NCBI GenBank assembly: GCA_025200525.1
Contig: CM045758.1
Span: forward strand, 62,680,598-62,744,597
DNA: 64,000 nucleotides
DNA from: Camellia lanceoleosa
Lineage: Eukaryota > Streptophyta > Magnoliopsida > Ericales > Theaceae
Direction of reading: 5' to 3'
Below the pieces are notes generated by a model. It was not told where the DNA came from and did no database searches. It saw only the letters and a list, made by a program, of their open reading frames with translations. This document shows positions 23,701-55,886 of the stretch, piece by piece. Position 1 is the first letter of the stretch; every line of letters begins with the position of its first letter. Both the position numbers and the translations under genes were made by a program.

Positions 23701-25210
23701 GGGAGAGTGGTCATGCACACATATGTTGAAAATACTTTGCCATGCCCCTTTCTCGCTCTCTGTTGCAGCAAACTAGAAACCAGCAACAAGAACTGGTCAG
23801 CAGCCTTCTGGAGCTTTGTACAGTGTTCTGGGACCAGTTGCAAACAGAGGCAAATCGGGGCATCGCGATGGATTTCCCGACAAGGCGACTTGAGCATGCA
23901 TGAATCCCTATCATTTGGAACAGAGCCGAGGTAGTCCATTTTGTTTAATTGGCATGCTAGTTTCCTTACTTACTTAGTTAATTCGTTAATTAATTAATGT
24001 TGTGTAATAATTAGTTTAATTAGCTTAGATTAGCTAGTTTATTCTGTACTATTCATTCGGACCCTCCGATGAGGGCAATGTTGTAATAAGTGTGCGTGTG
24101 TGTGTGATGCATGTCTTCCAACCCCACGTCTTTCTCCCTTTTATTTACCAGCTTATGATGATTAGTTTTAGGGCATGTTTCAATTAGCATCCTTATGCTC
24201 GCATGATTGCATCCATTCATCTGTCTTGCATACACCGGGCTTGGCGCATCATACTAACTGCATTGTATTTCAGTTCCAAGTTGAATACATGTTATTTGTA
24301 ACATCTCATATGCCATTTTAGAATAGCCGAGCCTATCTTAGTTGCATCCTGCATGTGTTGCATTAGGCATTCTTGACATAGCTAGGATCATGCATTGTTT
24401 TCTAACATAGCTCTTGTTTTGGCTCGGAGTACTCGGTGAGTGTTTATGCTTTAGCATCCTTGCATGTGTGTGAGTAATTGCCATGATAGCATGCTTGCCA
24501 TGTGGCTAACTGATTATGTGATATACCTGCCTGAATGCCTGTGGGTGAAGGTTGGATTACTTGAATTGGAACAATTCATCGATTGCAAGTTTTAAGCCCA
24601 CTTGAGAGTGGCAAATCACCCTGTTTTCTAAGCCCACTTGAGGGTGGAAAATCCACGTCTTAGCCTACTTACGAGTAGCACCATCAAACCATTTTCAAAA
24701 AAACAAACATGAAATGTTTTGTTTCAACTCAGAAGATCTAGTCTATACTTGTATGTCGTGCGCATAACATAGTAATTCTAGGCTAATAACCGAAATAAGA
24801 GCACATGTGTTTTCAAAAACAACATATCATGTTAGTAAAGGCCGATCTTTGATCGGGCAAGTGGGGGTGTTCATTGCATGACCTTCCCCTCTCGTACCCA
24901 AGTTCCTAAGCCGAGGCAACTTTGGTGATGACGGACACGTGGCCTTAGGCATGAGTCAGGGTTTCCGAAATTCCCCAAAAATAAAATATTTAGGTGGTGA
25001 CTCTGTACCTGGCAAAGCAGTCCATGTTTGGCACTTCTTTCTAAAAATCAGTTTTTCAAAAAGATTTGCTGGATTTGGATTCTTTGGTGATTTATTGATC
25101 TTGCATTGCACTTTGTAGGATTAGATTCAAAACCGTGACATTGAGTCCGAACTGTAGTAAGCCCAATGAACAAAACGAGATTTCTCTCGGGACGTTCGGG
25201 GACGTCTACA
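20712..25210 (+). mobile_element. Tat solo LTR nested in the 5' LTR of Tat copy 2 (4.5 kb)
   Basis: Starts TGTAGACACCCC and ends GACGTCTACA, flanked by CTAGC (20707-20711) and CCAGC (25211-25215). The uninterrupted 3' LTR reads CCAGC at 48384, so the left copy carries one change. It contains no coding domains. It belongs to a different subfamily than its host: TATA-like TCTATAAAGG at 21613-21622, the exact 20-bp palindrome AAGTGGTCGGCCGACCACTT in 21450-21470, hairpins H1-H3 at 21993-22158, and the 54-bp palindrome near 23480. Confidence 0.92.
21993..22158 (+). other. LTR hairpin set, copy b (H1 21993-22009, H2 22083-22110, H3 22139-22158)
   Basis: H1 GGGGGT, loop CATCT, ACCCCC. H2 as in copy a with C-to-T changes. 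H3 AGAGAGGGG against CCCCTCTCT, sequence different from copy a but fully paired. Confidence 0.7.
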
Positions 25211-26280
25211 CCAGCTTTCGATGGTTAGTTTTAGGGCATGTTTCAATTAGCATACTTATGCTCGCATGTTTGCATTTATTCATCTGTCTTACACGTATCG
25301 AGCTTGGCGCATCATAACAACTACATTGTATTTCAATTCCTATTTGAATACATGTACCAATTGTTGCATTCTTATGCCATCTTAGAATAGCCGAGCCTAT
25401 CTTAGCTGCATTTTTTCATGTGTTGTATTAGGCATTGTTGACATAGCTAGGATCATGCATTGATTACTAACTAGCTTCTTTTTTGGCTTGGAGTACACTG
25501 TGAGTGTTTACGCTTTAGCATACTGCATGAGATGTGTATGTTGCCATGTATAGTATGCTTGCCGTGAGGCTATTTTCTTAACTGATATAACCGTATGAAT
25601 GCCTGTGGATGAAGGCTTGATTGCCTGGATTGGAACAACTCGATGATTGAGAGTTTTAAGTCCACTTGAAGTGGCAAAATTATGTTTTCTAAGCCCACTT
25701 GAGGGTGGAAAATCCGCGTCTTAGCCTACTTGCGAGTAGCAACTTCAAACCATTTTCGAAAAACAAACATGAGTTGTTTTGTTCCAATCCGCGTGATTGA
25801 GTCTATACTTGTATGTTGTGCGCATCACATAGTAAGCTAGCTAATAAACTGGAATAAGACCACATGTGTTTTCAAAAACAACATATCATGTTAGTAAAGG
25901 CCGATCCTTTGATCGGGCGAGCAGGGGTGCTCATTGCATGACTTTCCCTCTCGTACCCAAGTTCCCGAGCCGAGGCAACTCTGGTGATGACGGACACATG
26001 GCCTTAGACACGAGTCAGGGTTTCCTAAATTTCTCAAAAACAAAACATTTAGGTGGCGACTTTGAAATCTGGCAAAACAGTCCATGTTTGGCGCTTTTTG
26101 ATTAAAATCGATTTTCCAAAACGATTTGCCGAATTTGCACCCTTTGGTGATTTATCAGTCTTACATTGTACTTTATGAGATTATATTCAGAACCATGATA
26201 GGAGTCCAAACTGTAGTAGCTAAGAACTAACAATTCGCGCCCTCGCGCGTGGAGCAGAGTTCCGGGCGGTCTATAGTTTC

Positions 26281-31102: not shown

Positions 31103-32280
31103 TTGCGAGTACTTTTTGTGCCTTTAATTTATTGCATTAATCAAGACTTTCAAAATTTTGATGAAAACGACGAGGAAGAAATCCCTCCGGTTTTGAAATA
31201 TTTGCTTGATCAAGAGCAGGAGATGTTTGTAAAACCTTTGGTTGATGAAATCACCACAATTAATGTTGGTGCTGAAAAGGACCCGCGGCTAGTCCAGATC
31301 GGGACCACATTGTCTTCGAAGGAGCGCGAGCGCTTAGTCGCTTTATTAAAAGATTTCAAAAATGTTTTCGTGTGGTCCTACGAAGACATGCCTGGAATCG
31401 ATCTTGAGATTGTACAGCACCGGATCCCTCTTGACCCAGAGACCTGACCTGTTAAGCAGAAACTCTGAAGGATCCGCCCGGACTGGGCTTTCCGGGCTCT
31501 GAAGATCAAAGAAGAGGTCACCAAGAAAATTAACGCAGGGTTCCTGTTGGTATCTGAATACCCTACTTGGTTGGCCAATATAGTTCCAGTGCCGAAGAAG
31601 GATGGCAGAATTCGAGTATGTGTGGACTTCAGGGATTTGAACAAAGCCAGTCCGAAGGATGACTTTCCTCTGCCGCATATCGATGAATTAGTGGACTTCA
31701 CTGCTGGGCATACGCTGCTCTCGTTCATGGATGGGTTTTTAGGCTACAATTAGATTTTGATGGCACTTGAAGACCGGGAGAAGACTGCTTTCACCACCAG
31801 TAGAAACCTATTGTTATAGGGTGATGCCGTTTGGGCTAAAATATTTGAGACTCACGTATCAATAAGTGCAAACCACGATTTTCCACGATATGATCCATAA
31901 AGAGGCTGCGGTGTATGTGGACGACATGATTGTCATGTCTAAGCAAACAGAGGGCCACTACACCATCTTGCAGAAATTCTTCCGAAGGATCAGAGAGTAT
32001 CGAGTGCGGCTAAATCCTCATAAATGTACATTTGGTGTCACTGACAGGAAAATCTTTGGGGTTCTTGATCACACAAACAGGTATCGAGGTCGATCCTTCC
32101 AAAATCAAGGCCATCTTAGAAATGCCACCATCAAGGACTGAAAATGAGGTGCGAGGCTTTCTGGGTAAAGTGCAATTCATAAGACGGTTTATTACAAAAT
32201 TAACCTTGACTTGTGAACCACTCTTTGGTCTCTTGAAGAAAGGAAAGAAGTTCCAATGGGACGGGCGATGCTAAGTTGCT
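31103..32280 (+). pseudogene. Tat copy 2 reverse transcriptase
   Basis: Words in order: EEEIPPVLKYLLDQ, DFKNVFVWSYEDMPGID, IVPVPKKDGRIRVCVDFRDL, LPHIDELVDFTAGHTLLSF, MDGFLGYN, then after a stop and frameshift near 31750-31800 IFHDMIHKEAAVYVDDMIVM with the catalytic YVDD at 31914-31925, LNPHKCTFGV and EVRGFLGKVQFIRRFI. The enzyme would copy RNA to DNA. At least three stops and two frameshifts. Confidence 0.9.
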
Positions 32281-32790
32281 TTCGAGCAGATCAAGCAATA
32301 TTTACAGAACCCACCCGTGTTGTCACCACCTGAGCCGAGGAAATCGTTGATTATGTACCTTTCAGTGACTGAAACTGCAATGGGTTGCATGCTTGCACAA
32401 GAGTCTGAGGATAAAGTAGAGAAGGCTATCTACTACTTGAGCAAGAAAATGCTGGATTACGAGACCCGCTATACTCCGCTGGAGAAGGCTTGTTTGGCCT
32501 TGGTATGGGCTACCAGGAAGCCGAGGCACTACCTGTTAGCTCAATCTATAATACTGGTTTCGAGATTAGACCCCATTAAATATCTTTTTAAGAAACCGGC
32601 ACTTACGGGTAGGGTAGCCCGTCGGTTGCTTATGCTTTCTGAATTTGATCTAAAGTACATGACACACAAGTCAGTGAAACGGAGAGCGGTAGCGGAGTTC
32701 CTAGCCAACCACCCAGTTGAAGGGGATGAAGCAGTTGAGTATCTGTTCCCAGACGAGGCCATTCTGTATGTTGAAGAAAAGACTTGGACG
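32281..32790 (+). pseudogene. Tat copy 2 first RNase H
   Basis: From the open frame starting 32317: LSVTETAMGCMLAQES, AIYYLSKKMLDYETRYTPLE, LALVWATRKPRHYLLA, YLFKKPALTGRVARRLLML and MTHKSVKRRAVAEFLANHP. This is the normal Ty3/gypsy RNase H joined to RT. It is the longest undamaged stretch of this pol (32317-33075). Confidence 0.88.
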
Positions 32791-33060
32791 ATGTACTTTG
32801 ACGGAGCGTCAAACCAATACGGGTATGGGATAGGGGTGTTGCTAATAGCACCCGACAATTCCCTTATACCTTTAGCATTCAAACTCCGGTTCAAAGTACC
32901 GAACAATGAGGCAGAATATGAGGCATGTATTGCTGGACTAGAAGCCGCCCTAGAACTAGGGGCAAAACGGTTGGATGTCATCGGGGACTCGAACCTTGTT
33001 GTATCTCAAGCTAAAGGAGATTGGAAAGTTAAAGAAGAAAAGATGAGAATTATCACCAGA
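32791..33060 (+). pseudogene. Tat copy 2 second (archaeal-type) RNase H
   Basis: Same frame: TMYFDGASNQYGYGIGVLLI (Asp codon at 32800), FKVPNNEAEYEACIAGLEAA (Glu) and KRLDVIGDSNLVVSQAKG (Asp). The D-E-D set and position between RNase H and integrase mark the additional RNase H that defines the Tat lineage. A frameshift at about 33045 separates it from the following HLLRENNRFADSLVTL linker. Copy 1 keeps only its last part. Confidence 0.9.
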
Positions 33061-34501
33061 CCTTGGACACTCTGATTCCTCGGTTTGGGAAACTGAATTT
33101 CGCTCATCTGTTAAGAGAGAACAACAGGTTCGCTGATTCATTAGTAACTCTATCTTCTATGATAGACATTCCTTTCGGAGTCCGGATGCATCCAATCATC
33201 ATCGAACAAAAATTCATGCCGGCCTACGAGCTGATTGTTGCCATAGATGAGGTATAAGATGAGAATCCTTGGTATTACGACATCTAGAACTTCTTGGAGA
33301 AGGAAGCGTATCCACCAGGGGCAAATGCCAAAGATAAGAGGGCAATTAGAAGAATGGTACTTTCGATTCATCGTTCTGAGGGGTAAACTGTACAAGAGGG
33401 GTCATCTCGGGATGCATAAGCTGTGTGTTGATGCTGAAGAATCCAAGCGCCTGATGTAGGCCATCCATGGAGGAGAGTGCGGAGCGCATATGAGCGGGGT
33501 GATGCTAGCTCGGAAGATTCTTAGACAGGGTTATTATTAGTCAACTATGGAGAAGGATTGTATTGGCTTCGTCCGGCAATGCCACAAATGTCAGATCCAT
33601 GCAAATCGCATGAACATCCATACGTCAGCTATATAACATGACCGCCATGGCGTTTCGATATGAGGATTGATGTGATTGAAATCACTCCAAAGGGGTCCAA
33701 TGGGCATGAGTACATTTTAGTGGCAATAGACTACTTTACAAAATGGGTTGAGGCCAATCTTACGCGGTGTTGAAGGCATCGCACGTTGCTAAGTTCATTA
33801 GAAACAACATCATCTGTCGCTACGGGGTCCCAAATGAGATTATTTCAGATAATGGTTCCCACTTCAAGAAGCAGGTGATCGACTTGTTGGAGAAGTACAA
33901 CGTGGCTTTTCATAAGTTATCTACATATCGACGCAAACCAACAAAAGGCTTGAAGCGCCAACAAGAACATCAAGCACATTCTGTAGAAGATGGTGGAAAC
34001 CTACAAGGACTAGCCAGATAAGCTGCCATTTGCTCTTTGGGGCTACCGGACTTCAATTCGAACTTCTACTGAGGCAACTCCGTTTTTATTGGTTTATGGG
34101 ATGGAGGCTGTTCTGCCTATCGAAGTTGAGGTTCCGTCATTACGGGTATTGGCTGAGTGTCAGATAGCTGAGGCAGATTGGCAGCAAAGTAGGTTTGAAG
34201 AACTCAGGCTCTTTGATGAAAGAAGGCTAAAAGCACTGTATCACGTTCAGGGTATCAACAAAGAATTACCAGGGCTTTCAACAAAAAGGTTAAGTCCAGG
34301 AATTTGAAAGAGGGGGATCTTGTGCTCAAAGACAACCAAGCTCTCATTCACAACCCTAAGGACAAGTTCAGACCCAATTGGACTGGCCCTTACATCATCA
34401 AGTCTATCTGGTCGGGTGGAGCTGTCGTTTTGATGGACCTAGATGGCCTGGAGTTCTCCCAACCGATCAACATGGACAAGTTGAAGAAATACTATCCCTG
34501 A
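33061..34501 (+). pseudogene. Tat copy 2 integrase
   Basis: Linker (IPRFGKLNFAHLLRENNRFA), zinc module (HGGECGAHMSGVMLA ... CHKCQIHANRMN, 33460-33610), core (VAIDYFTKWVEA at 33718, RYGVPNEIISDNGSHFKK at 33820), damaged third acidic region, LVYGMEAVLPIEVEVPS at 34086, and the C-terminal NWTGPYIIKSIWSGGAVV ... INMDKLKKYYP ending with a stop at 34499-34501. Broken by many stops and frameshifts around 33455-33770 and 33930-34085. Confidence 0.9.
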
Positions 34502-35152
34502 GTGGCTCGCTAGGCCGAAAACCCGAAAGGGCGACCTAGGAAAAAGTTAGAGCATGAAAATTTTGAAATAATAAAAACTGAGCTCGCAAGGTTGAAAACC
34601 CAGAAAGGGCGGCCTTGGCAAAAGTTAGATCGCAAAAGGAGAGTATTAATACACGAGTGAACCTTAGCCGAACTCCGTAGGGCTTGATTCCCATCTTTGG
34701 GATACATAGGCAACTTCATTTTGAAGTCTAGCCATAAACACTTCCCCGATCAACTTTGTCCATGTGATCATGTTGGTCATCTCTGTCTTTTCTACGTTCA
34801 AGAGCTCGGTTGTGATCTCGGTCTGGTGTTATTCGGACTAGGGGCAACTTTCCGATTCTTTGGGATCCGAGGTTGTACATCTCGTGATAGATCTCGGCGT
34901 GTCGGTTGTGATCCATATCGAAAATTGTTTTAAAAAGTTTTAATAAAAGTTGATTTTGCTCAAATTAATCTTTTTACGACTTAGACCATTTTTGGACCAA
35001 ACGAAAAATTTTCAATACCCACAACCTTCAATTACATTGATTTCAGTACAAAGTTCTCCTACTCTTGAATACAAATTGAAGTTGCTTTTTATTACATTCA
35101 TAAAGGAAACTTGAAAGTACTGATAAAGCAATAAATTCAGGGCATAGTCAAG
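34502..35152. other. Tail-to-tail spacer between pol and the antisense DUF7745 gene
   Basis: No coding region. It matches the copy 1 spacer (1295-1920 reversed) in several blocks, for example the words after the integrase stop (CGAAAACCCGAAAGGGCGACC). Confidence 0.6.
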
Positions 35153-36427
35153 TCAGGTGTTCTTGCGCCCCCTCCCAGAACTTGTGGAAGCCTCTGATGT
35201 CAAAGTAGGCCCAACCTGCGCCTCTTCATCAAGCCAAGCTATGCACTCATCAGAGAGGCTACAACTGAAAGTGTGAGTGGGGCCCAGAAACTCTCTCGTC
35301 CTCCATGCTGTGGCATACCGAGCTAACTGTGCGGCCCGGACTGGAAATGCAGCAGGGTACTTTATCCCTTCTTCTGGGCAAGTCTGATCATGTCCAAATT
35401 GGCGCCAGATTCAAAACGGGAAGTAAAAGACACTGTGTGTCAGGCCGATCAACTGAATCCCAGGCTGGCGAGACACATCGCCGGCAGATTGAACCAGGGG
35501 CAGCGCCAAGCAATGCTGACAGCGGATAGACTGCACATCCATTCGCACCACCACCCCTCATTAGGGGCATCGACTAGATGTCGCCAGAAGAAATAGTCGC
35601 GAGCTGAATATGCTGGGCATGAGTCCACAACCTTCAACTTGTCCATCAACCATATCTGGGGAGGGATGAAAAATGAGAGATTAAAGAATAGAGAGATGTA
35701 CGTGGAGAGAAAAGTGAGAAAAGGGTTTTGAGAGAAAAACTGAGCCTGAGGGCCGAGTGATGTGAGAAATATATGTGAGATGAGATGGAAAACATTACCT
35801 GCAGCAGTAGTGGACTCCCCGCGACTCTAGTCGTCTCTCGGCGATGGAAAGCATCCAAACCATCAACGTTTCAGCTAGTGTCATGGCAATGCAACTCTTA
35901 CCCTCTTTTAAGCCTTGGGCAACCTCAATCAAACAGACGCTAGACCCTCCGGAGCCTGAGGCAAGCAAGATATAAGACACCATGCACAAGCAAAGGGCAT
36001 GTCACCAAAAACCCTGCCAATGATGATCATTGCGGTCATCGGCATCAAAAAACTGATGAATCAAGCTGGGGATGTCCAATTCCCCATCACAGATCAAAGA
36101 CCGAGCGTCATGCATAGTAAGCCCACACATCCATCCTAAGGCTTGGACGTGGCTGAAGCGGAATTAAGGCAAAATTTCTTCATCGCACTCGGATTCCATT
36201 AAAGCTTGGAAGTCTTCGAAAGTGGGGCATATCTCTTGTCCGCCAAAGCTGAAAACATGAGTTACCAGATTCCAACACCTTGCCGCGGCATGGAGGAACG
36301 GAAAACGTAGCGGGGTGCAGCTCAGCGTGAATAGTGCATTTATGCCGAACCCCCAGAAATTCAACTTTTCCGAGCCATCCAAGTTAGCAATCCAATTTGT
36401 GAGGTTTTGGACAAGAAATGCCTCCAT
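35153..36427 (-). pseudogene. DUF7745-type plant gene, antisense in Tat copy 2
   Basis: Exon 1 (36427-35799): MEAFLVQNLTNWIANLDGSE, KLNFWGFGINALF, FPFLHAAARCWNLVTHVFSF, FEDFQALMESECDEEILP, then after a stop MCGLTMHDARSLICDGELD, and ESRGVHYCCR at the end. Intron 35798-35656 (143 bp, GTAATG...CCCCAG). Exon 2 (35655-35153): IWLMDKLKVVDSCPAYSARD, YFFWRHLV, FPSRFESGANLDM-like, ending VGPTLTSEASTSSGRGRKNT. About four stops. I recognise the family as DUF7745, a plant group I believe is related to the mobile-domain proteins; its molecular role is unknown. Same strand and order as the mobile-domain gene upstream. Confidence 0.78.
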
Positions 36428-36474
36428 TTGGTGCAAAACTGAGTTAGAATGAGGGAACCATGAAGCTGGAACCT

Positions 36475-36654
36475 TTATGGAGGATAAGGCACTGTTTAGA
36501 GAACATATGGCAACAATCTGGAGGTCCCCAACATAACTGGTTGGCCAGCCAGTTTTTCTGGTCGGCCAGCCACATTTTCTGGTCTGCAGACCAAAAAAGT
36601 GGTCGGCCAGCCCTTTTGATGGTCGGCCATGAGCAAAAAGGTGGTCTGCAACTG
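36475..36654 (-). promoter_or_regulatory. GGTCGGCC motif cluster upstream of the antisense DUF7745 gene
   Basis: Six units within 36537-36654, including CTGGTCGGCCAGCCAC, TGGTCTGCAGACCA, GTGGTCGGCCAGCCC and ATGGTCGGCCATG. On the minus strand the cluster is about 110-230 bp before the ATG at 36427, with CCATAAAGG in between (about 36475). It resembles the cluster upstream of the LTR TATA box. Promoter role inferred. Confidence 0.5.
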
Positions 36655-36767
36655 TTTTTTGTCTCCCGAAGAGAGTCCCTAGCCTTCCTATGTGCTGAGA
36701 GTGCTGAAGGTCTGAGTTTACCTCTGTTTCAGATGCGTTCTGTCTCTTTGTTTATCCAATATGCATT

Positions 36768-36850
36768 TGCTTATCGAGTTGTTACTCTTTGGTTATCGAG
36801 TTGTCGCTCTTTACTTATCGAGTTGTTGCTCATTGTTTATCGAGTTGTTT
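36768..36850. repeat. Short tandem repeat, unit about 25 bp
   Basis: Four units of TTATCGAGTTGTNNCTCTTTG type between the two antisense genes. No gene in 36655-37144. Confidence 0.8.
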
Positions 36851-37144
36851 TTGGTAAGTTGTTTAGTTTGTTACGTTGGTTCGTTACCTGACTCGGCGAT
36901 ACATGATGTTCAATTTCCATTCACTTTCATTTTTGTGCAAAATGATGCAATGCAATGCTCAGAATACAAATACAACACTTTTTGAACAAAAAGTTGTTTT
37001 CATTCCATCGTGTTTTCTGTTTTCAACATTTTACAACAGGGTACAAGTTTTAAAGAAAATAAAACTATCTAACGCTGTACAATGTGCTACAACTACTAGT
37101 CAAAAGAAAATAAAGCAAAAACATCTGCATCTGTGCCATCTGAC

Positions 37145-40100
37145 TCAAGATCGAGAGGCTCTCTTCGTCCTCTTTGGTTGAGTAGCCTCTACACCACCAG
37201 CACCACCGTCTGAATCGAAGCCACCATCCTCGGAATCCTCCTCGGCATCGCCTCCACCCTCTGAACTGGAACCAGAGTCATCATCTTTGCCCGCGGATGT
37301 CTCCGACTAAGGATGAGCTGACTCCTCCTCCTTGCTGGACTCGTCATCCTATCTGGCAGGTGCTCTGCGTCTCCCTCAACCACAAGTTGAGGCCCCTCTC
37401 CCAGCTGCTCGAGAAGGTCTGGATATTTCGGCCTGCAGCGGTGTGACCTAAAAAGGGAGTTTGAATACATCAGCCGGAGTATGTATATCAGATGTAGATG
37501 CAAATATGGTGCATGGAATGTGTGCATGCAGATATAGTATGTGAATGTGATATGTTAGATGTGCTCTACACATGCTGTGAATCAGTATAGTGAAATGTTT
37601 GGTTTTTGTATGTCACCAGAAGTATGATAAATACAAGGAACTTGAAAAGTACCAGAATACCGGAGGCGTACAGTAGCGTCTCCCTCCGTAGGACCATGCT
37701 CTCGAGTGAGGTCACCACCCTGAGCAACCCCTCAGTATATTCTCTGGGAGGCTGCAAATGCAAGTTCAAGCCATCAGTGAATGAATGAATGTCTAAATAT
37801 CTGAATGATAAATGAAAACTGTGGAGCATACCGGTGGTGAATTAGGGTCACTGACATATCGATGATCGGGCAATGGAGGCTCTAGTGGAATCTGGTAAGA
37901 CATCCCGTACTGCCAGCCTGTCAACTCAGTCGGAAGATCTGGCCATCCAGCATAATGCCCAGCAAGGGGCATCCCCCTGGTCCTACCCCTCGATGCGCTG
38001 GTCCCGCTAATCGAAGGAATGTCTGCAACTCGGGTGCGGCTCAAGGAAGGCATATCAGCAGCTCTCCTCGTGGAGGTATAGACACCTCTCAGTGGAGGCA
38101 TCAGGTATGTATGGCGATATGTCGCGTACTCCCCCTCCTCCAAGAAAAGAACTACGTCAACACCCAACATAAGGTTGTCAACCTCCTGGGGAGTGAGGCT
38201 CTCTATAGATCGCATGTCCAGTAGAGGCGGTGAGGGGATCTCCTGAGCAGGATTACCCATCGTCTGACGCATGAAGCGATCCTCGAGAAACTAGGCTTTG
38301 TCGACTGGTCCCTCAAACAAAACCCTGTATCGGGAGGCACCCCATACCCCAGCGAACTGGAATCGAGAATACCCTGGCATGGCTATCCAAGGCTCCCAAG
38401 TAATCTGCGAATAGCAAGTGCATAAACTGATTAGATGTCATCAATATGCAAGATGAATCAAAAGCTGAAAGCATGAAGAATTGAGAGTTCTGGTTTACCT
38501 CCGTCGCCGTCTGCGTGTCAAAGAAGCGCAGAGATATAGCAATGTCTCCGGGGCACAGGCGACATCGACCCTCAAATCTGCGTGAATATGGTATATCTAG
38601 AGGTGCCTCAACCTCCAGCTCAGGGGCGAGTGTCGGGAAATGAGCGAAAACTCACAGCTGTGAAAGGCAAGATAGTGGCTGTTAGAATATAGAATATACA
38701 TAATATGTAGAAGGCTGAGTGTGCAATGCAGGGTACAGAATGTAATGAGTGCAATGTGTGCATGTGCGATGTCTGAGATAATGGCAATGTAAACCAAAAG
38801 GGCAGAATGTACCTCTTAGGCTCTCCAGTAGCCACCTACTATGTTCCCCTGCCCGCGGGAGGTCGCGCTTATGTAGCAATAAAGGGTAGAGAGGCTAGCG
38901 CCACCCCAATCAAAATGCCGGACCTATGATAGGTCTACTACAGCACTGAGAAGATAAAGCCCAACCGTGTTCCCCCTATTGGAGAACAGTGTGGTCCCGA
39001 GAAGGAACATCAGAAATCCCCGGGCATACTACTATGTGGCCTCAAAAGTCTCGGACGTAGTCCTTATGTACTGCTCAGCGAACCAGGTGTACCTGACCCT
39101 GCCTGATGATCTATCGATCGGCAGATGGGCTCTGAGCAGATACGTCCAAGCCGCCTCCCACTTACCCATATCAGTATCGTATAGGATCGGCCGGCCTGCT
39201 ACGTCGAGGCCCGTCAACATCGAGAAGTCATACGGGGTCATCGTCATGTCCCCAACAGCAGAGAAATGGAAGGAGTTGGTGGTGTCCCGCCATCTCTCTA
39301 CAAGTGCACCCAGAAGGGTCCTACTCACCGGATGACGCGATAACCACATGCAAAATGGGCCGAACCCCACCTCATCTACGATATGTCGGACAGCGTCTGG
39401 GAGCTCCATATACCACACCCTCACAATGATCGATCTGTAACCCCATGTGAAACGGGAAGATAGCTGCGTTCAGAATGAACAGATGTGTTCAGTTGCAGAA
39501 TGAGCGGTGTACTGTGTTATGAGCTGTGCGTTCAGAATGAATAGTGTACTATGCTATGAGATGTGTGTTCAAGATGAATAGAATGCTGTGTTTTGAGCTG
39601 TGTGCCCAATGAACAAAGTGTTGTGTTACGAGCTGTGTGTTCAGAATCAATAGAATGGTGTGTTGTGAGCTGTGTGCGCAATGAAAAGAATGTTGTGTTT
39701 TGAGTTGTGTGCCAAATGAACAGAATGCTGTGTTTTGAGCTATGCGCCCAATGAACAGAGTGTTGTGTTATGAGCTGTATGCCAAATGAATAGATTATTG
39801 TGTTTTGAGTTGTGTGCCCAATGAACAAAGTATTGTGTTTTGGGCTGTTTGCCAAGTGAATAGTATGTTGTGTTGTTAGCTGTGTATCGAGTGAGCAGAG
39901 TATTGTGTATGAGCTATGTTCAGAATGAGCAAAATGTTGTGTGCAAGTTGTGTTCAGAATGAGTAAAGTGCTGAGTATGTAAATGTATTCAAAACAAGCA
40001 GGTAAAATACATAACGAAAGCATGAAATGTGCAAGAAATACAAAATACATCGTGGAAAATGTAAAAGTGAAGTACACACCTCGCGTGCCTGATGAGATAA

Positions 40101-40307
40101 GTGGGACTCAGGCTCCCATAATAGCAAGTCTGCGGGCGCTCACTGCGCAAAATCGATGAAATGATGGAAGGTGTTGGGAGATAGTATGTGCTCCTGCGGG
40201 TGGTACCTCTCTGGGTTGAACGGCCGAATCCTCGGAGGCAGTGGCATAATGTCGGGCTCGTCCTCTACTCGTGGAAAACCTCTGCTATGTGGAATAGCAC
40301 CAACCAT
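37145..40307 (-). pseudogene. Plant mobile domain (PMD) gene with introns, antisense in Tat copy 2
   Basis: Exons read on the minus strand: E1 40307-40080 (MVGAIPHSRGFPR, PRIRPFNPERYHP); E2 39434-38813 (VRVWYMELPDAVRHIVDEVG, FGPFCMW, LLGALVERWRDTTNSFHF, MTMTPYDFSMLTGLDVAGRP, WTYLLRAHL, then MFLLGTTLFSNRGN); E3 38657-38499 (LWVFAHFPTLAPELEVEAP); E4 38404-37832 (ITWEPWIAMP, FQFAGVWGASRYRVLFEGPV, SIESLTPQEVDNLMLGVDVV); E5 from 37751 (YTEGLLRVVTSLESMVLRRE); E6 37447-37145, an acidic tail (DDDSGSSSEGGGDAEEDSED) and KRTKRASRS. Splice signals GT/AG flank each. About five stops. E2-E4 are the PMD core (aminotransferase-like, Pfam PF10536), a domain of plant genes and some transposons. Function in the element is unknown. 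Confidence 0.82.
39480..39985. repeat. Tandem repeat field inside the first coding intron of the PMD gene
   Basis: About twelve to fourteen units near 35-37 bp, built on GTTGTGTTATGAGCTGTGTGCCCAATGAACAGA-like sequence with variation. The field fills most of the 39435-40079 intron. A 181-residue minus-strand frame across it (39532-40077) is a product of the repeats. Confidence 0.82.
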
Positions 40308-40624
40308 CTGAAAAAAGGTGCAAAAATGAGCCAAAATGAGCAAAATGAGCCAAAATTGCAAAAAGTCAACAAAAGTCAACCCTCGATAAGGGCTAGTTTG
40401 GCATGTACTAAATAAGCCAAAAAGTCAAAAAGTCACTATCTTATTTAAGTTACATCATCTTATTTAAATCACATCACCTCTCTAACACATCACATCAAAC
40501 CCAACCCAAACCCACCAATAAGTCAAAAAGTGCACTTTTTTAGGACATCCCAAACTAACCCTAAGAGAAAAAGTCAACAAAAGTCAAAGCCCAGGAAAAG
40601 GTGCTAAACTTCGAGAGAAACATA

Positions 40625-40982
40625 CCTCAAGTGGTAAAAATGGAGAAAGAAGCTCTGAAAACAAATTCTGATTGGTTCAAAACGAAGAGAATCAAAAGTT
40701 TTCGCGAAACAACTTCGCATGGAAGAAACACGTATAAAGTGCAAATCTGAGAGGGAAAATGGTCTAGGGAGGAAAAGAAGTCAATTTTGGCACTAGAGGT
40801 GTGAATGAAATGTGTTTTGGAGGTGTACACTTATAGAATTGAGGCTAAAAGACCAAACTGCCCCAAAGTTGTGTAAACTGGTCGGCCAGCCAGTTTTTCT
40901 AGTCGGCCGACCACTTAAGTGGTCTTCAACTGGTCGGCCAGCTAGCTAGGTGGTCGGCCACCCCTCCTGGATGGTCTCCAGG
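40625..40982 (-). promoter_or_regulatory. Putative promoter and 5' leader of the antisense PMD gene
   Basis: A cluster of four GGTCGGCC units at 40877-40980 (CTGGTCGGCCAGCCAG, AGTCGGCCGACCACT, CTGGTCGGCCAGC, GGTGGTCGGCCACC) is followed on the minus strand by TTCTATAAGTG (40836-40830), the same TATA-like word as in the LTR. A leader then runs to GAG|GTATG at 40626/40625, and a 318-bp intron (40625-40308) ends in TTTTTTCAG next to the ATG. This is the layout of a normal plant gene start. Inference from sequence only. Confidence 0.55.
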
Positions 40983-41269
40983 GCCCCATTGTCCTCCCTG
41001 TGTGTTTTTGAGATGACTAGAGTCCTCGGCCCTCGCGAAAGTGCAAGAAAAGTACGCTTTTCAGTTCAAAATGTCCCCGCCGGAACTTCAATTCAAGTCT
41101 TCGGTGCAAGGCTTATCGTTACTCGTCAAGAGCATGGTGTATCCTTTTTAGTGCATTGTGACCCATCCGAGAGGTAAATCGGAGGTTACGATTGAATTGC
41201 TCTCGTTAAGGCTAGTATTTCCTTATTCGGCATTTTGTTTCAAACATACTTTTGAAGTTACACTGAAAA

Positions 41270-42390
41270 TGCATTGTTATGCACATCATTCGTCGCATTG
41301 TTATGCACAACATTTCTCTTCCTTTGTCATGCACTTTTCTTGCGCTGTCGCGCATGTCTTACTTGCATTGTCCTGCACACTTTATTTGCGTTGTCACGCA
41401 CGTTACTTGCATTGTCATGCACACTTTGCTTGCGTTGTCACGCACGTTATTCGCATTATTATGCACATCTTTATTTGCGTTACTCGCATTGTTATGCACA
41501 TCTATCTTGCGTTTTCACGCACGTTACTTGCATTGTCATGCGCACTTTACTTGCGTTGTCGCGCACTTTACTTGCGTTGTCACACACGTTACTTGCATTG
41601 TTATGCACCCTCTTTACTTGCGTTGTCACGCACGTTACTCGCATTGTTATGCACATCTATCTTGCATTGTCATGCACGTTACTCGTATTGTTATGCACAC
41701 TTTACTTGCGTTGTCACGCACGTTACTTGCATTATTATACTTGCATTGTCACGCACATTACTTGCATTGTTATGCACAAATATCTCGCATTGTTATGCTT
41801 GTTACCTGCATTGTTATGCACAAATATCTCACATTGTTATGCTTGTTACTTGCATTGTTATGCGCGTTACTCGCATTGTTATGCGCACTTTATTTGTGTT
41901 GTAACGCATGTTACTCGCATTATTATGCACATCTATCTTGCTTTGTCACGCACGTTACTCGCATTGTTATGCACCCTCTTTACTTGCATTGTCACGCATG
42001 TTGCTCGCATTGTTATGCACATCTATCTTGCGTTGTCACGCACGTTACTCGCATTGTTATGCACATTTACCTTGTGTTGTCATGCACGTTACTTGCATTT
42101 TTATGTACCCTCTTTACTTGCGTTGTCACGCACGTTACTCACATTGTTATGCACATCTGTCTTGCGTTGTCACGCACGTTACCTGCATTGTTATGCACAC
42201 TTTACTTGCATTGTCATGCACGTTACTTGCATTGTTATGCACCTTTTCACTTGTGTTGTCACGCACTTTTCAATTGTATTGTTATCCATCTGTTCACCTG
42301 CATTGTTATGCATGTTTGACCTGCATTGTTATGCGCCTGTTTTGCTTGCATTGCCATGCGACCTTTTCACTTGCATTGTTATGCGCATTC
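41270..42390. repeat. Tandem-repeat field in the 3' untranslated part of Tat copy 2
   Basis: About 1.1 kb of a unit near 44 bp made of two related halves, GTTACTCGCATTGTTATGCA and TTGCGTTGTCACGCAC with ATCTATC between, about 25 units with substitutions. All three forward frames stay open across it (up to 407 codons), because the unit lacks stops, not because it codes. Tat-lineage elements are known for variable tandem repeats in this location. Confidence 0.9.
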
Positions 42391-42717
42391 TACCTACATG
42401 TGTTTCTACTATATTGTATATGTCAAAGTTTCTTTTTGTGCAGGCACGATATTGTATGTACGGTTCATTTGAAGCTGGCACAACTAGACAATGTTGAATG
42501 TGCAGTTAAGTCAGAGGAACTCCGGGTGAGATCAGTCCTCTTTGCATGATCGTAAGTTATGTTCGGCATTGGACATGCCATTTGCATCTTGCCCCTGCCT
42601 GCGGGCGCATCTCTTTGTTATCTTGTCTGTTTGTCTAAGTCTTCGGCCTTGTCAAAACTGGGTTGTCTCTGGGCTTTGACATTCATGCCCGTCACTTCTT
42701 AACTTTCAAGTTCTATC

Positions 42718-42730
42718 AAAGAGGAGCAAC
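42718..42730 (+). other. Polypurine tract of Tat copy 2
   Basis: AAAGAGGAGCAAC immediately before the 3' LTR start TGTAGACACCCC at 42731; the expected place for plus-strand priming. Confidence 0.7.
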
Positions 42731-42979
42731 TGTAGACACCCCATTTTTGACCGGCCTTAAGACTTAGACGTCATCGATTGAGCGCTCAGTGATTGCGCAT
42801 GTTTGTGCTCGTTTCGAGTTTTTGGGGTTTTTAGCTGAGTGCCTTGCCTCCGGGCCTCTGAATTCTTTGTGTTTTGGCTCGGTTTGTGGACCAAGCCTTG
42901 TTGACCTTGCCTGGAGGTACACAGAGGTCTTGGAGACCACTTTTTTGTGGTCGTAGACCACTTTTACTTCTTGGAGACC

Positions 42980-45264
42980 TGTAATAACCCAACCCTCGTA
43001 TGTGATTGTGTGATATATTTTAGTCTGTTATTCTGACCCTTCAAATACTTAATGTGATTTTTTTTTTTTAAAGAGAAATTAAATTTAAGTACATAAATGT
43101 TATGAATCTAACATGTATCTGTTGGGCAATGAGTGTATCTGTCACACTTAGAATGGGTAAATCAGAAATTGAGAGTCTTAGAGACTTGGTAATCTGAAAC
43201 AGACTTCATATTTGGAAACAGCATAATTTTTAGGTAATAATAAGCATATTTGCAGAAATTTGATTCGGGAATGATTAAATGATCGAATTTTGTCTTATTC
43301 ACTCCTTATGGATATATATGTGTGTGTGTTCTTGAATCATTTGATGAAAAACCCTCTAAGTCAAGATAGGTCCTGAGAAGAGGAAAAGAGAGACTAAGGG
43401 AGAAAGATTGAAGGGTTGGGTAGGAGTGCATCAAGAAAGTTGGGGAATCTAGGAACTTAAACTTAAGGTATGAAGATGTTTATATTATCCTTATAATCAT
43501 TGTGGTGCTAAATGTGTGTAAGAAATGAATTGGCAAGATAATCTTATGTTTGCATGATTTGATTCAATTTGGAGTATCTATATAAGAAGTTACACTCTTT
43601 TCTTCAATTTCCTTGCTTGAAATGAAGCATATGGCATGATTTAGTGCCTATGTGTTGATATGAGTGAGTAACTTAGAAAACTCATGAGAAGGAATATGAT
43701 TATGAGTTTATGTTTATGAGTTTATAAATTTAAGAGTAATGATTCAATTTATACTCACTTGATGCATGTATTTTGATTCTTATTCACATGAATTTTGGAC
43801 TTTAGATTATCAATTTATAGTTGAATTTTGAGGCCCTAAACATATCTACAAAAGGATGGAATTGTGCAGAATTTTCGGACTTTTTGATGCAGAATCGCCG
43901 CATGTGCGAGGCCTAAGGCCGCACGTGCGGGAAAAATGGCAAATTTTGGAGTTCAACACTGCTAAAAAGGCACGTGCGGGGCATCACTACATACGTCGGA
44001 GACTTTGTCAAGACGTCACGGGATCCTGCATCGAAACAACCGCCGCGCAAACCCGGGTGGAAAAAACGCCGCACGCAACCTGCATCGAAAACTTGTTGCT
44101 CCATTTTTGCGTCTTTGGACCCTCTAATGTTGTCGAAACCTGCAAATGATGTTATTATGTTCGTTAATTTAGTCGAAGTAAAGTGAATCAAGAATTGATT
44201 TAACAAGAAAATGAGGGACTAATTTATATCTTTGTGCATGTGTAGGACACGTTTCAAGTGGATCAAGTGCCCGCCGCAACACAATGAGTAATAGTACCAT
44301 CGATGTACTTTAATTATAATGCTTATGTTTGATGTTAACGTTATGTTTAATGATTATGCTACTTGGAGATGATGTGTTGTTATGGAATTGAGAAACAATG
44401 TGGAATTGTGGAAACATCGAAGGTTTTTGTGAACTATGAATGTATGAGGCCGAAGGCCTTTTTGTGAACTATGAATATATGAGGCCGAGGGCCTTTTTGT
44501 GAACCATGAATATATGAGGCCGAGGGCCTTTTTGTGAACCATGAATATATGAGGCCGAGGGCCTTTTGTGAACTATGACTTTATGAGGCCGTGGCCTTTT
44601 GTGAAGTAACGAATCTATGAGGCCAAGGGCCATTTTGTGACATTATGAACATATATGGCTGAGTACCACTTAGTGAAGTTGTGAACCGTCAAGATCGTTT
44701 GAACATTTGTACAGAATCAAACTAACTACATGATTTCTACGTTTATTTACGCCTTGAAATGTGTTGTCGTTTAAAATGAATATCGATGCATTTATGTACT
44801 ATTGTTCACTAAGCCTGGCTCACTCTATGTTATGTTTGTTTCTGTAGGTAGCCAACCTGGAGGTCGCCCTAATTCTGATACCGTCACACTTTTGTCAGCC
44901 TAAGCACAACCAGGCACCTGGTCGAAGCCGTGTTTTTGTGGTGTCTTGCTAGATAATGGCTTGCTTTTGGTTATTGACTTAGGATATAATGTATGTAATC
45001 TCTGGTTATATGCCCAACTCTGGGGCTAGTTCTGTATATGTTATGTAGATAACTAGTTTAAAGATGTGTTTTGTCAGCTTCATTCGTCTTGTACAGTAAC
45101 TGTGATCCTGGCATGGTAATAGAAGCTCAATGGATGTCTTACTTTCTTTTATACTATCATATGAATCTATGCTTCCGGTCAGGCCCCATGTTACATAACA
45201 GATTATGTGTCCATTTCTGTATAGGTCATGCCCAAACTTCTAGGGGCAGGTTTGGGGCATGACA
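42980..45264 (+). mobile_element. Solo LTR of the TGTAATAACCC gypsy-like family, nested in the Tat 3' LTR
   Basis: TGTAATAACCC...GGGGCATGACA, 2285 bp, with the 5-bp duplication AGACC on both sides (42975-42979, 45265-45269). No coding domain; open stretches at 43856-44206 are shadows around CG-rich repeats. Contains a palindrome CCGCACGTGCGG at 43919-43930 and the minisatellite at 44430-44640. Confidence 0.9.
44430..44640. repeat. Minisatellite TATGAGGCCGAGGGCCTTTTTGTGAA type
   Basis: Six units of about 33-36 bp in the solo LTR; the same GGCC-type family array as at 4396-4500 and 54713-54810. Confidence 0.88.
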
Positions 45265-46310
45265 AGACCGATTCGGTTTTGAGCCTTGACGCGCACCTTG
45301 TCTCTAGACTGCTTAACGTTCTCCTTTTGGCCTAGTTTTTGGACCACGCCTTGTTGCCTTTGTCTAGAGGGGCGCTAAGGTCTTGGAGACCACTTTTTGT
45401 GGTCGATGACCACTTTTGGTGCCCGTAGAATAGTTTTCGAGGCTTCTGGCTGCGCGCCTCGACCACCGGACTCTTGTCTTGCATCCTTTTTGGTTTTTTT
45501 TTGGCACAAACCTTGTTTTCCTTGCTTGGAAGGTGGAATGAGGGTAGGAGACCATTTCTCCCCCTGAAAACAACTTTTCTTCCCGCCAGCCAGTTTTCTG
45601 GCCGGCCAACTAGTCTTGGTGGTCTTTGGACCACCAAAAGTGGTCTCCCACTATGCCATTACCTTGCATTGTTGGTAAAGACCACCTCTTCCCCCCTGCT
45701 GATCACTTTGTCTCTTTGGAGACCACTTCCACTGGTCGGCCGACCAGTGTAAGTAGCTGCTCGACCACTTTAAGTGGTCGGTAGCTTTCCTGTAGATTTT
45801 GCAGAGTCTGTGGATGCCAGTTGTGCCAGCTACAAGGCACAGACTGCATCCTCCATACATGTGTATGGAGGGATTTAACCAAGCTTCTAGCTTCTCCAAA
45901 AAGCTTGAAGCTTGGAGTTCTACAAGAGGGAGGCTCTCCCTCCCTTCTCCAGGTTCAGAAAAACTCCATTAGAGCTATACATATATCTCCCTTTCTATAT
46001 TCCCCTCTCTCTCTATATTGGTGCCTTAAAGTGTGTTGTTTCTTCACTTTTGCACTACAACTCCTAGCCACACACCATCATCTCTGAGCTGAGATCCTTG
46101 AAGGTGGTATTTGGGTCACAAAAGCTGGTTTTGAATTTGAAGAAGGTGTCAAGTAGCAAAGGCTTCAAGGGTAACCCCTTTTTCCCTTTTTAAGCTTTGT
46201 TTTGCTTATACATTTGGCCATCTTTGCATGATGTTTTAGGCCTAACTTTAAACTAAAAAAGGCTTCATTTTCCAGTGTTTAAAATGTTTGTTTAAGGCCT
46301 CTTAAGTGTT

Positions 46311-46478
46311 GGGGGTGGTCTACCCCCCTTTTGTGCCTTATTTTTCCTTGTTTTGAGTTCTCTCTTTAAGCCTTTGAGATCTCCTTCTCTTGGCCTTTTA
46401 ACCACTGAAATCCAGTGGATTTTCAGTGACGGAAGTGTGGTTTTAAGGCCTGAAATGAGAGGGGGTAATCCCCCCCTC
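46311..46478 (+). other. LTR hairpin set, copy c (H1 46311-46327, H2 46402-46428, H3 46459-46478)
   Basis: H1 GGGGGT, loop GGTCT, ACCCCC; H2 near CCACTGAAATCCA/TGGATTTTCAGTG; H3 GAGGGGG, loop with TAAT, CCCCCTC. Confidence 0.7.
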
Positions 46479-49451
46479 CTCTTGTCTGGTTTGTATGCAT
46501 AGAGGGCCTATCAAATGAGCATCTTTTTACACTTCTTTGTGGCTTTGTTTAAGCTTGTTTTTGTGACTTTTAAGACCAGATATGACTCTGCTTTTGGTTG
46601 GTTTGGTATTCTCTCTAGTGGTTCATACACTTGTAGTGTAATTCCACATTGCTAGCCTAACATGCTCTATACTTTAGACCATCATTCAAGCCTATTTTGA
46701 CTACACCTCAGCATGATTTTATCCATGTTTTACCATGCTTAAGCTCTGTTTTAAGTGCTTTAGGTCATGCATGCCTTGCTTTGTATAGCCTTAGTGCATT
46801 TTTGCTCACTAGCTTTGAGTTTCATGTTACCTAACATGGCTTACTTGAGTTGTTTGCATGCTTTGGCCTCATCTCTAACATGATTTCAGTGTGTGTAATG
46901 TGGCCATATTCTCTCATGTTTCACCATTTCAATACTTTTGGTGAGTTGTGCTTTATGCCTTAAAAGTGAGCCATTGTGTATGCATGTTTGCCTGAGCTCT
47001 TGAGCTCCATTTTAGCATGTTCTTGACCCTTAACTTGGCATGGTTAAGCTCTATCCAAAGCTGGTTTAGTGGTTTAAGCTCAGTATTGCGTGCTCCTTGT
47101 GTATTGCTCTTAACTAGCCTCATGCTCTAGGCCTTCTAGCATGCCTCATTTGTGTTGTTTGGATGATTTGGCATCATTTAACACCTCATTTCAGAGCATG
47201 TAGTATTGCCATATTCTCATGGATGTCACTCTTTAATTGCACTTAAGGGTTGTGCCTTTATGCTTTGCTTGCGAGCCATGAGTTGAATGTGCATTTCATG
47301 CTCATTGTGCCTAGGTTTTGTTGAGTTTTGGCCACTGTTTTGGGCATGATTGAGGTCTGTCCATATTCAGTTTAAGTCCATTTTGCATGTTGTTGTATGC
47401 TTGTTGCATTGCATATTGTTGCATGCTTGTTGCATTCCATGATATTTGCATGCTTGTCTCATTGCATTATGTGTGCATGTATTGCATTGTGTTTGGATAG
47501 GGAGTTAATCCAAACACGAGAAACGAGGGACGTTTCATACTTGAAGTGATGAAACGTGCCTCAATTCTCGGTCGCCGATCTTCTTGATCATGCATGATAG
47601 AGTTTAAGGCTTTTATGTGTTATTTGTGCATTCATTCACATTGATTATGCAATCTTGGCTTCTCGGCCATTGTGCATTGCGATGCTAGGTTGGTGGCCCG
47701 AGAGTCGAGAACTACAGTCCCTTGAGCTCATGAAATGATAGGGAGAGTGGTTGTGCACACATACCTTGCAAATACATTGCCATGCCCCTTTTTGTTCTCT
47801 GTTGTAACAAACTGGAAGTGTGCAGGATTTTCTGGTCGATAAACCAGTAAAACTGGCTAGCCGACCACTTTTTATGGTCTCCAGCAAAGTTGGTTGGTCG
47901 GTAGGTGGTCTACACCACCATAAACTGGTCGGCCACCCTTCTAGGAGTCCCCAAGATGGAATAGAAGCTATCTAGAGCTTTGTGCAGAGTTCTGAGAACA
48001 AATGCAAACAGAGGCAAATTGGGGCATCGCAATGAATTTCCGAACGAGGCGACCGAGCATGCAGCCTTTATCGTTCAAGGCAGAGCTAAGGCAGCCTACT
48101 TCATATAGTTTACATGTTTAGTTAGTTGCTAACTCAGTTAATTTGTTAATTAATTAAAAGTTGTGTAATAATTAGTTATAGCTAGTTATTCAATTTGTTG
48201 TGTAATAATTAATTTAATTAGGTTAATTAGATTAGTTAGGTAGATTAGCTTAGATTCAGCTAGCTAGCTTATCATTCGGACCCTCTATCGAGAGGGCCAA
48301 CTGTTGTAATAAGTGTGCGTGTGTGTGATGCGTGTGTGTGATGCATGTCTTCCAACCCCCATTTCTTTCTCCCTTTTATTTACCAGCTTTCGATAGTTAG
48401 TTTTAGGGCATGTTTCAATTAGCATACTTATGCTCGCATGTTTGCATTCACTCATCTGTTTTACACACACCGGGCTCGGCGCATCATACAAACTACATTG
48501 TATTTCAATTCCTATTTGAATACATGAACCAATTGTTGCATTCTTATGTCATCTTAGAATAGCCAAGCCTATCTTAGCTGCATTTTTTCATGTGTTGTAT
48601 TAGGCATTGTTGACATAGCTAGGATCATGCATTGATTACTAACTAGCTTCTTTTTTGGCTTGGAGTACACTGTGAGTGTTTACGCTTTAGCATACTGCAT
48701 GAGATGTGTATGTTGCCATATATAGCATGCTTGCCATGAGGCTATTTGCTTAACTGATATAACTGCATGAATGCCTGTGGATGAAGGCTTGATTTCCTGG
48801 ATTGGAACAACTCGATGATTGAGAGTTTTAAGTCCACTTGAAGTGGCAAAATCATATTTTCTAAGCCCATTTGAGGGTGGCAAATCCGCGTCTTAGCCTA
48901 CTTGCGAGTAGCAACTTCAAACCATTTTCGAAAAACAAACATGAGTTGTTTTGTTCCAATCCGCGTGATTGAGTCTATACTTGTATGCTGTGCGCATCAC
49001 ATAGTAAGCTAGCTAATAAACTGGAATAAGAACACATATGTTTTCAAAAATAACATATTATGTTAGTAAAGGCCAATCCTTTGATCGGGCGAGCAGGGGT
49101 GCTCATTGCATGACCTTCCCCTCTCGTACCCAAGTTCCCAAGCCGAGGCAACTCTGGTGATGACGGACACGTGGCCTTAGACACGAGTTAGGGTTTCCTA
49201 AATTTCCCAAAAACAAAACATTTAGGTGGCAACTCTGAAATCTGGCAAAACAGTCCATGTTTGGCGCTTTTTGATTAAAATCGATTTTCCAAAATGATTT
49301 GCCGGATTTGGACCCTTTGGTGATTTATCAGTCTTACATTGCACTTTGTGAGATTATATTCAAAACCGTGATAGGAGTTCGAACTGTAGTAGCTAAGAAC
49401 TTAAAATTCAGCCCTCGCCAAGGAGAAGGAGTTAAGGTGGTCTACACCACC

Positions 49452-54191: not shown

Positions 54192-55731
54192 TGTCACGAC
54201 CCAAACCCGTCCCCAAAAGTTTGGTACATGATCGGCCTGTACTTAGGCCTTAAAACAAAATTTCAAAAATATTTATTCAAATATGGGACCTTAAGCGGAA
54301 GCAAATACCAAAATAAGAATGTCCATTGAGCTTGTGTCTACATGCCAAGATCATCAAACAATATGTTCTGAAGGTTCATATACACAGTTCATATATACAA
54401 GTATAGTTCATGTACACTAGCAAGACAAAAATTACATATCCATTAGTGTCTAAATAACAAGCTCCAAAAGACTCAACAAATGTGGAGGCGCTTCCCAAAA
54501 GACAAAAGGTTACACTTTCGAGGCTTGAGAAAACCGGTCCCTCAAAAATTCCCCTAAAACTGACCTAGGACTTCCGTCCAACTGATCACCTACATGCACA
54601 TATAAAAACGGAGTGAGCAAGGATCAGTGAAGAATAATAATGTAGGGAGGGTCGGCTGAATAAGCATGTGAATATTCATCTAGCGCACACATAACCTCAT
54701 ATTCATTATTTCTAAATGGCCTCGGGGCCACATAAGACGGAATGGCCTAGGGCCCATTGTAATACAAAATGGCCTCAGGCCCAACGTAATACAAATGGCT
54801 TCGGGCCCAACATATCAATAGTTGTTCAGAACATTAGAGGGTAGATAGAACATCGACATATCTCCACCTCCCTTGGCCTTGGGCCATGAGTCATAAATAA
54901 TTCATATCATTATAGGGTAGTGTAGACACCCCATTTTTTACCGTCCTCAAGACTCAATTGTGCTTGTAGGTACATCCAACCACAAGTTCGATTGCTCGTC
55001 GGGATTCGACTTTCGCGGTGGAACGTCATAGGTTTGAGCTTTCCAAACCCTGCATCTTTTCTGCCCCATTCTTGGACCATGACTTGGTCCTTTCAGAATG
55101 TTTCCCTTGGTGCACTGCCGACCACCTTTTGGCCCTGCCGGCCATGCCTTTATTACTGTCGGCCATTGATAGAGCCTGTCGGCCATCAATGAACCACTGC
55201 CGGCCACCACTGATGGCCGGCAGAACCCTTGTCTCAGCAGGTTTCACGCCAGATCTTTTGAGCTAGCTGGTTTTCACTCATCTCTGAGCCCTTTTCCAAG
55301 CTTGTTTAACAAGCTTTGCATTGTTTTTCTTCTATGTAAGGAGAGGCCCTCTCTCCTTAGCAGAGGTTCAGCCATTTTAGAAGAGTTGTATCTCTCTCTA
55401 TATATTTCTTACTCTCTCTCTATATATTGTTGTTGGTTTTGTGCCTTAAAATCCATTTTTCTTGCACTTTTGCACTACAACACATAGAGACACACCACCA
55501 CCTTTGGACTGAGGTTCTTGGGAATGTTACTTGAGCTCTAAAAGTGAGTTTTTAACCCCTGAGGTTGCTGGTTTTGAAGTTGGACTTCAAGGGTGAGCAT
55601 TTTTCCCTTTTTAGCATTTTTTTGTATCTCATTTTGGTCATCCTTGCATGTTGTTTTAGGCCCTTCTTTCAACTGAAAAAAGTTCTGTATTTAAGTGCTT
55701 TTGGTGTTTGTTTAACGTCTTTTTGGTGTTA

Positions 55732-55886
55732 AGGGTGTTCTACCCTCTTGTATGCCTTGTTTTGAGCCATGCCTTAAGGCCTTCGAGGTAGTCTTGGTTC
55801 GGCCTTTTAGCCACTGAAATCCAGTGGATTTTCAGTGGTAGGCATGTGGTTTTTGAGGCCTCAAATCAGAGGGGGTAACCCCCTCT
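55732..55886 (+). other. LTR hairpin set, copy d (H1 55732-55746, H2 55811-55838, H3 55868-55886)
   Basis: H1 is AGGGT, loop GTTCT, ACCCT: both arms changed relative to copies a-c but still paired, and the loop keeps TCT. H2 as copy a. H3 AGAGGGGG, loop TAA, CCCCCTCT. Confidence 0.72.

Follow-up and report, generated by a model that had tools for sequence, protein, structure and literature searches.

An antisense PMD and DUF7745-type gene pair shares a palindrome with the long terminal repeat in a Camellia Tat retrotransposon family

We analyzed a 64,000-nucleotide stretch of the Camellia lanceoleosa genome (contig CM045758.1, positions 62,680,598–62,744,597; hereafter the window), which holds one old long terminal repeat (LTR) retrotransposon of the Tat lineage. 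Downstream of pol and antisense to it, this element carries a gene with a plant mobile domain (PMD) and a DUF7745-type gene. The two genes most likely form a cassette that is resident in a large Camellia Tat family and lies antisense between pol and the 3′ LTR. Both genes are preceded by a palindrome that recurs in the LTR, as GGTGGCCGGCCGGCCACC in one clade of the family and as GGTCGGCCGACC in the clade of the window. Judged from these sequences, it is about an even prospect that the pair encodes regulators of the element's own promoters.

Using an intact relative as query, we retrieved the 30 best DUF7745 loci from the genome. In 29 of these (the exception being L031) the opposite strand carries an integrase tail that converges on the DUF7745 gene, and in all 30 the PMD-side sequence of L039 continues upstream of DUF7745, with the qualifications that L030 and L039 are a single locus and that the match of L038 is partial. 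Ten-kilobase stretches round eight other copies contained PMD followed by DUF7745 in seven cases (L039–L042, L051–L053), and among five 6-kb stretches taken farther upstream of DUF7745 loci a full PMD exon 1 was present in L046, L047 and L049 and a partial one in L050. Likewise, combining the best 150 PMD places with the best 150 DUF7745 places, each out of far more candidates, gave at least 13 pairs within 10 kb, the window included, where 0.15 would be expected. All 13 pairs are on the same strand, with DUF7745 located ~2.9–3.3 kb 3′ of PMD exon 2.

The Nei–Gojobori mean dN/dS of the PMD gene was 0.18 for exon 1 (eight elements; dN < dS in 18/28 pairs), 0.15 for exon 2 (six elements; 14/15 pairs) and 0.22 for exon 4 (seven elements; 21/21 pairs), the remaining pairs having a dS that was either saturated or not larger, two cases that are pooled here. 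For DUF7745 exon 1 the value was 0.11 (seven elements; dN < dS in 21/21 pairs), and over the 30 loci it was 0.14, with dN below dS in all 435 pairs. Control ratios from other reading frames were 1.97 and 2.63 for same-strand frames and 0.85, 0.31 and 2.40 for frames of the opposite strand. Copies retrieved by protein similarity have their dN biased downward; PMD exons 1 and 4 and, in the window's clade, DUF7745 did not serve as retrieval queries. These substitution patterns show both antisense genes to be evolving under purifying selection, and because dN/dS lies at 0.11–0.22 we regard them as resident genes of the element rather than passengers.

The mean dS was near 1 in the mixed sets spanning two clades, and intron positions were unchanged; 52 of the 57 PMD splice junctions placed in eight copies are GT or AG. 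Introns fixed in position at such a divergence have thus outlasted a long retrotransposition history, and the family is a clear case of introns retained within a retroelement. The original prediction was that antisense orientation protects the introns. Their persistence at the same positions in two clades is consistent with this view, in which the retention would be explained by the antisense position: internal promoters would transcribe the minus strand and these transcripts would be spliced, and the sense genomic RNA would hold the introns in reverse, so that they would pass through reverse transcription unspliced.

The window holds 16 copies of the motif GGTCGGCC, with 0.42 expected: three upstream of DUF7745, four upstream of PMD, six in the LTRs of the element and three in a solo LTR nested within it. 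Across the 30 DUF7745 loci we counted 85 sites of the type GGCCGGCC and 14 of the types GGTCGGCC or GGCCGACC, overlapping sites being counted separately, and all 99 lie at most 400 bp upstream of the start codon. Palindromes precede DUF7745 in 29 of the 30 loci, and the remaining ~3.2 kb of every locus contains none. In the L039 element an identical 20-mer, AGGTGGCCGGCCGGCCACCT, precedes both genes, and four GGCCGGCC sites lie in its LTR.

For comparison between clades we coded GGCCGGCC as variant G and GGTCGGCC and GGCCGACC as variant A, the window belonging to the A clade. The ratio of G to A sites in the G clade (seven elements) was 18/1 in the LTR, 11/1 upstream of PMD and 23/2 upstream of DUF7745; the corresponding values in the A clade (six elements, window included) were 1/8, 1/15 and 0/14. 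Elements with data numbered five and five for the PMD upstream region and six and four for the LTR, in the G and A clade, respectively. The clade's own variant dominates at the LTR and upstream of PMD and DUF7745 alike. L050, which lies upstream of L037 and was kept apart from these counts, has two GGCCGGCC and one GGCCGACC-type site upstream of PMD and two further GGCCGACC-type sites outside any feature found. Elsewhere in seven elements only two sites were found in ~56 kb, both within PMD exon 2, in a count made without L043, L040 and L046–L049. In L043 three GGCCGGCC sites adjoin a forward LTR start, which probably belongs to a nested element, and a fourth lies within PMD exon 2. A tree of DUF7745 exon 1 unites the five A-clade elements that possess this exon in a single clade (support 1.0) and places L038, the locus devoid of sites, beside them. 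Between positions 900 and 1500 of L038, different short repeats stand where the DUF7745 palindromes would be.

Exact searches of the 3.0-Gb Camellia genome located the 20-mer at 2,080 places and the 14-mer TGGTCGGCCGACCA at 7,083, the reversed controls giving none in either case. From 50 listed contig 1 occurrences of the 20-mer we chose 20 by position only; six lay in an LTR, 11 before PMD and two before DUF7745, amounting to 19 within this family, and the remaining one (L073) matched the family only partially. By this sample of its 20-mer form, the palindrome is specific to the family and concentrated in non-coding regions and, in one contrast of two clades, its variants evolve together, as is the case for VANC-type motifs.

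We propose that one or both proteins would be nuclear regulators, probably dimeric, that bind at the palindrome in each of three promoters, and that they would control the element or counter its silencing in the manner of VANC for VANDAL transposons. More tentatively, by analogy with that system, the family may possess a retrotransposon-borne, sequence-specific anti-silencing or feedback system, an LTR counterpart of VANC/VANDAL, in which two paralogous antisense PMD-type proteins would bind the palindrome at the three promoters and proteins and palindrome would diverge together between subfamilies. Several observations weigh against the self-regulatory interpretation. L038 has no palindrome upstream of DUF7745, L043, the eighth of the ten-kilobase stretches, has PMD with no DUF7745 match, and L048 lacks both PMD exon 1 and a site in the LTR. 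The variant switch amounts to one comparison, that of two clades with each other. A strict TATA pattern followed the motif in 4/36 DUF7745, 2/10 PMD and 2/7 LTR cases, compared with 158/3000 control windows. An hhalign comparison of two small Camellia alignments, PMD against DUF7745, gave a probability of 1.1 and hence no link, and the AlphaFold models of both proteins were poor (mean pLDDT 33.4 and 30.4). Searching against solved structures returned no match better than E 0.2.

Two further candidates were considered for the motif and its surroundings. TATA boxes at fixed spacing yielded little with the strict pattern; a TATA-like CTCTTTAAAAG is seen ~60 bp past the motif in many DUF7745 upstream regions, by eye, post hoc and uncounted. 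The core of DREB/CBF sites is CCGAC. Such sites are ruled out as the general meaning of the motif, as the GGCCGGCC of the other clade lacks this core.

Among other explanations, it is possible, if not probable, that a host factor of transcription or silencing recognizes the palindromes and is exploited or suffered by the element, whose antisense proteins would act otherwise in the life cycle. The palindromes do lie on the promoter side of both genes, binding by a protein of the element is something we infer, and 175 PHAS loci at tea PMD genes reveal host targeting of genes of this kind (PMC10673657). However, a widespread host promoter motif would not be expected to fall almost entirely within one family, as did 19 of the 20 motif-picked places (one unclear), nor to differ between clades within a single host genome. 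An unlikely alternative is that the palindromes spread among the three places by short duplication or conversion and have no role, that of the proteins being unrelated. Conversion would account for the agreement within clades, and the short modules round the sites are indeed alike between places of one element, but the sites persist in nearly all DUF7745 loci at a mean dS of 0.42 and are missing from the remainder of each locus.

We consider a role of the palindromes at the RNA level, such as dimerization or packaging of the genomic RNA, very unlikely. Perfect GC-rich palindromes are able to pair between RNA molecules, yet packaging leaves unexplained why they keep similar distances before the start codons (~0.1–0.2 kb for DUF7745 and ~0.4–0.65 kb for PMD). 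Least credible to us is a recent capture of two host genes by this single element, or their later insertion into it. The original prediction had spoken of two captured plant genes, and PMD does occur in host genes (PMC5418596), but the same cassette is found in many copies of two clades and under purifying selection, and the family-wide arrangement in other copies contradicts a single-copy event; the same source describes PMD clades encoded by Gypsy elements only. The outcome named beforehand as a refutation, no other copy with both genes, did not arise. Self-regulation by the pair is the reading that we prefer, at the even strength stated at the outset.

The window element itself is bounded by a pair of LTRs and by the target-site duplication CCACC (17392–17396 and 49447–49451), as befits an LTR retrotransposon. 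Both LTRs share their first 22 bases, they terminate in GGTCTATA or GGTCTACA, and they have diverged by a Kimura two-parameter (K2P) distance of 0.061 over 4369 aligned sites. With inserts subtracted, each LTR measures ~4.4 kb and the element ~25 kb. A putative primer-binding site, TGGCGACTCTGCTGAGGA, follows the 5′ LTR at 26281. In one pol fragment residues 21–124 match RT_RNaseH and residues 176–258 match RVT_3, placing a second, archaeal-type RNase H downstream of the first; since this extra RNase H is Tat-specific (PMC6317226), we assign the element to the Tat lineage. The giant Tat element of the original prediction is thereby borne out, and the limits given there for the region of the pair, 34502–42731, coincide with the end of the integrase frame and the start of the 3′ LTR (Table 1).

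Table 1 Features of the retrotransposon in the window (window coordinates)
Feature	Position	Strand	Remarks
LTR retrotransposon, Tat lineage	17397–49446	+	Camellia lanceoleosa
5′ LTR	17397–26275	+	split by related solo LTR at ~20712–25210
Related palindromic sites, 5′ LTR	17964–18147, also 20196–20271	+	
pol fragment, two RNase H domains	32275–33072	+	RT_RNaseH 4.3e-24, RVT_3 1.2e-10
Integrase C-terminal end, end of pol	34220–34501	+	integrase frame ends before stop at 34499–34501
DUF7745-type gene	35153–36427	−	exons 36427–35799 and 35657–35153, GT/AG intron; broken in this copy
GGCCGACC-type palindrome cluster	36530–36650	−	upstream of DUF7745 gene
PMD gene	37145–40307	−	six exons, between pol and 3′ LTR, antisense; broken in this copy
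PMD exons	40307–40080, 39463–38813, 38657–38499, 38404–37832, 37751–37661, ~37447–37145	−	frame of last exon unsure
Tandem repeats	39512–39967	−	~35-bp units, inside PMD intron 1
GGCCGACC-type palindrome cluster	40875–40960	−	upstream of PMD gene
3′ LTR	42731–49446	+	split by insert at ~42980–45264
Related palindromic sites, 3′ LTR	45600–45780 and 47860–47934		

The PMD gene passes the PF10536 cut-off (1.2e-23; 84.3 bits versus 34.9), and all eight junctions of its introns 1–4 are GT/AG. For the DUF7745-type gene the broken window copy reaches 19.8 bits against PF24924, where the cut-off is 26, and all four Camellia relatives scanned pass it. Of the identifications made beforehand, that of the PMD gene is upheld and that of the DUF7745-type gene is supported through its relatives; the minus strand, the GT/AG introns and the motif clusters upstream of each gene are upheld as well. 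Beyond what had been predicted, both genes are disabled here, the PMD gene by seven in-frame stops across exons 1–4 and the DUF7745-type gene by stops and frame breaks, and the window copy of the element is dead. In the leader of the window PMD gene a MITE-like (miniature inverted-repeat transposable element) insert occupies 40390–40561; its inverted ends are GGGCTAGTTTGG, TAA borders it at either side, and it may be the cause of the larger distance between palindrome and start codon in this copy.

The two domain families had been suspected of being related. Matches to PF10536 below the cut-off were obtained for three of the four Camellia DUF7745 relatives, and in two of these the match covers the residues that also match DUF7745. 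Furthermore, the DUF7745 intron maps, by interpolation of match positions, to about PMD profile position 180/181, which is the place of PMD intron 2, and both introns are in phase 0. Based on these matches and positions, the PMD and DUF7745-type genes may be read as diverged paralogues. At E 0.001, 34 proteins match the window DUF7745-type gene, and all named ones are from Camellia; no relative beyond Camellia is named in these 34 or in 92 matches, a weak absence because the search needs shared short words. A PMD profile search of the genome showed that some places cover the whole profile in a single open frame whereas in many more the match is interrupted around profile positions 181 and 236, not far from where introns 2 and 3 of the element PMD lie. 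This difference may be relevant to whether host or element PMD came first.

Other elements surround and interrupt the one described. The insert in the 3′ LTR (42980–45264) starts with TG, ends with CA and has AGACC next to each end. The solo LTR nested in the 5′ LTR (20712–25210) is related to the element and also has GGTCGGCC sites, and another related LTR lies downstream at 54921–59250. Positions 1–13016 hold, on the minus strand, another element of this kind that has diverged, with its LTR start near 13016 and its integrase at 2765–2334. Its stretch 511–795 matches the DUF7745 gene in the same position relative to its pol, and its PMD side extends beyond the window edge.

The family offers a concrete experimental target, as the palindrome conserved at the two antisense genes and the LTR exists in thousands of natural copies and in two variants with matching protein variants, and one binding assay could reveal what the antisense PMD and DUF7745 proteins do. 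Extra ORFs of this sort were reportedly surveyed by Steinbauerova in 2011. Antisense open reading frames (ORFs) are found in plant retrotransposons generally (PMC7264820), with an antisense ORF2 in 15 bean gypsy families (PMC4093653), and conserved extra ORFs in sunflower elements (PMC11728184); one survey found PMD to be the most frequent atypical domain (PMC9289625). The role of antisense extra ORFs in plant retrotransposons, PMD included, is described as unknown (PMC11963269, PMC7264820), and according to PMC5418596 some PMD clades are encoded solely by Gypsy elements and PMD ancestry, host or transposon, is open. The open-licence literature searched (abstracts and passages, which is no proof of absence) contained no description of a PMD–DUF7745 pair or of the shared palindromes, and no mention of DUF7745. 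Families like this one could be a source of the tea PHAS loci at PMD genes (PMC10673657).

Host MAIN and MAIL1 belong to the same domain family and are needed for transposon silencing and for expressing genes with a common promoter motif (PMC7156037, PMC5418596); they are host genes and the reader of their motif is given as unknown (PMC7156037), whereas the genes described here belong to an element. With VANDAL the family shares motifs that are concentrated in the non-coding parts of one family, where they are bound by VANC, and that co-evolve in their variants (PMC5735166). VANDAL, however, is a DNA transposon with demonstrated binding and demethylation and with long same-direction arrays, in contrast to a retrotransposon with other protein families, palindromes and a binding predicted from sequence. 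In Retand, too, pol and the 3′ LTR are set far apart, by sequence that holds antisense ORFs and tandem repeats, but its antisense domain is TRP28 (PF04195) and its LTRs measure 315–1,194 bp (PMC11963269), compared with PMD and DUF7745 and LTRs of ~4.4 kb; TRP28 had no match at E 0.01 in the two conceptual proteins scanned. Ogre shares the Tat lineage, the two RNase H domains and the very large size, and 57% of its elements are reported to carry PMD (PMC6317226). Compared with the Ogre and other Tat elements with PMD ORFs as that source describes them, the Camellia family has two antisense, intron-bearing genes in tandem, one of them of DUF7745 type, and a palindrome common to both genes and the LTR.

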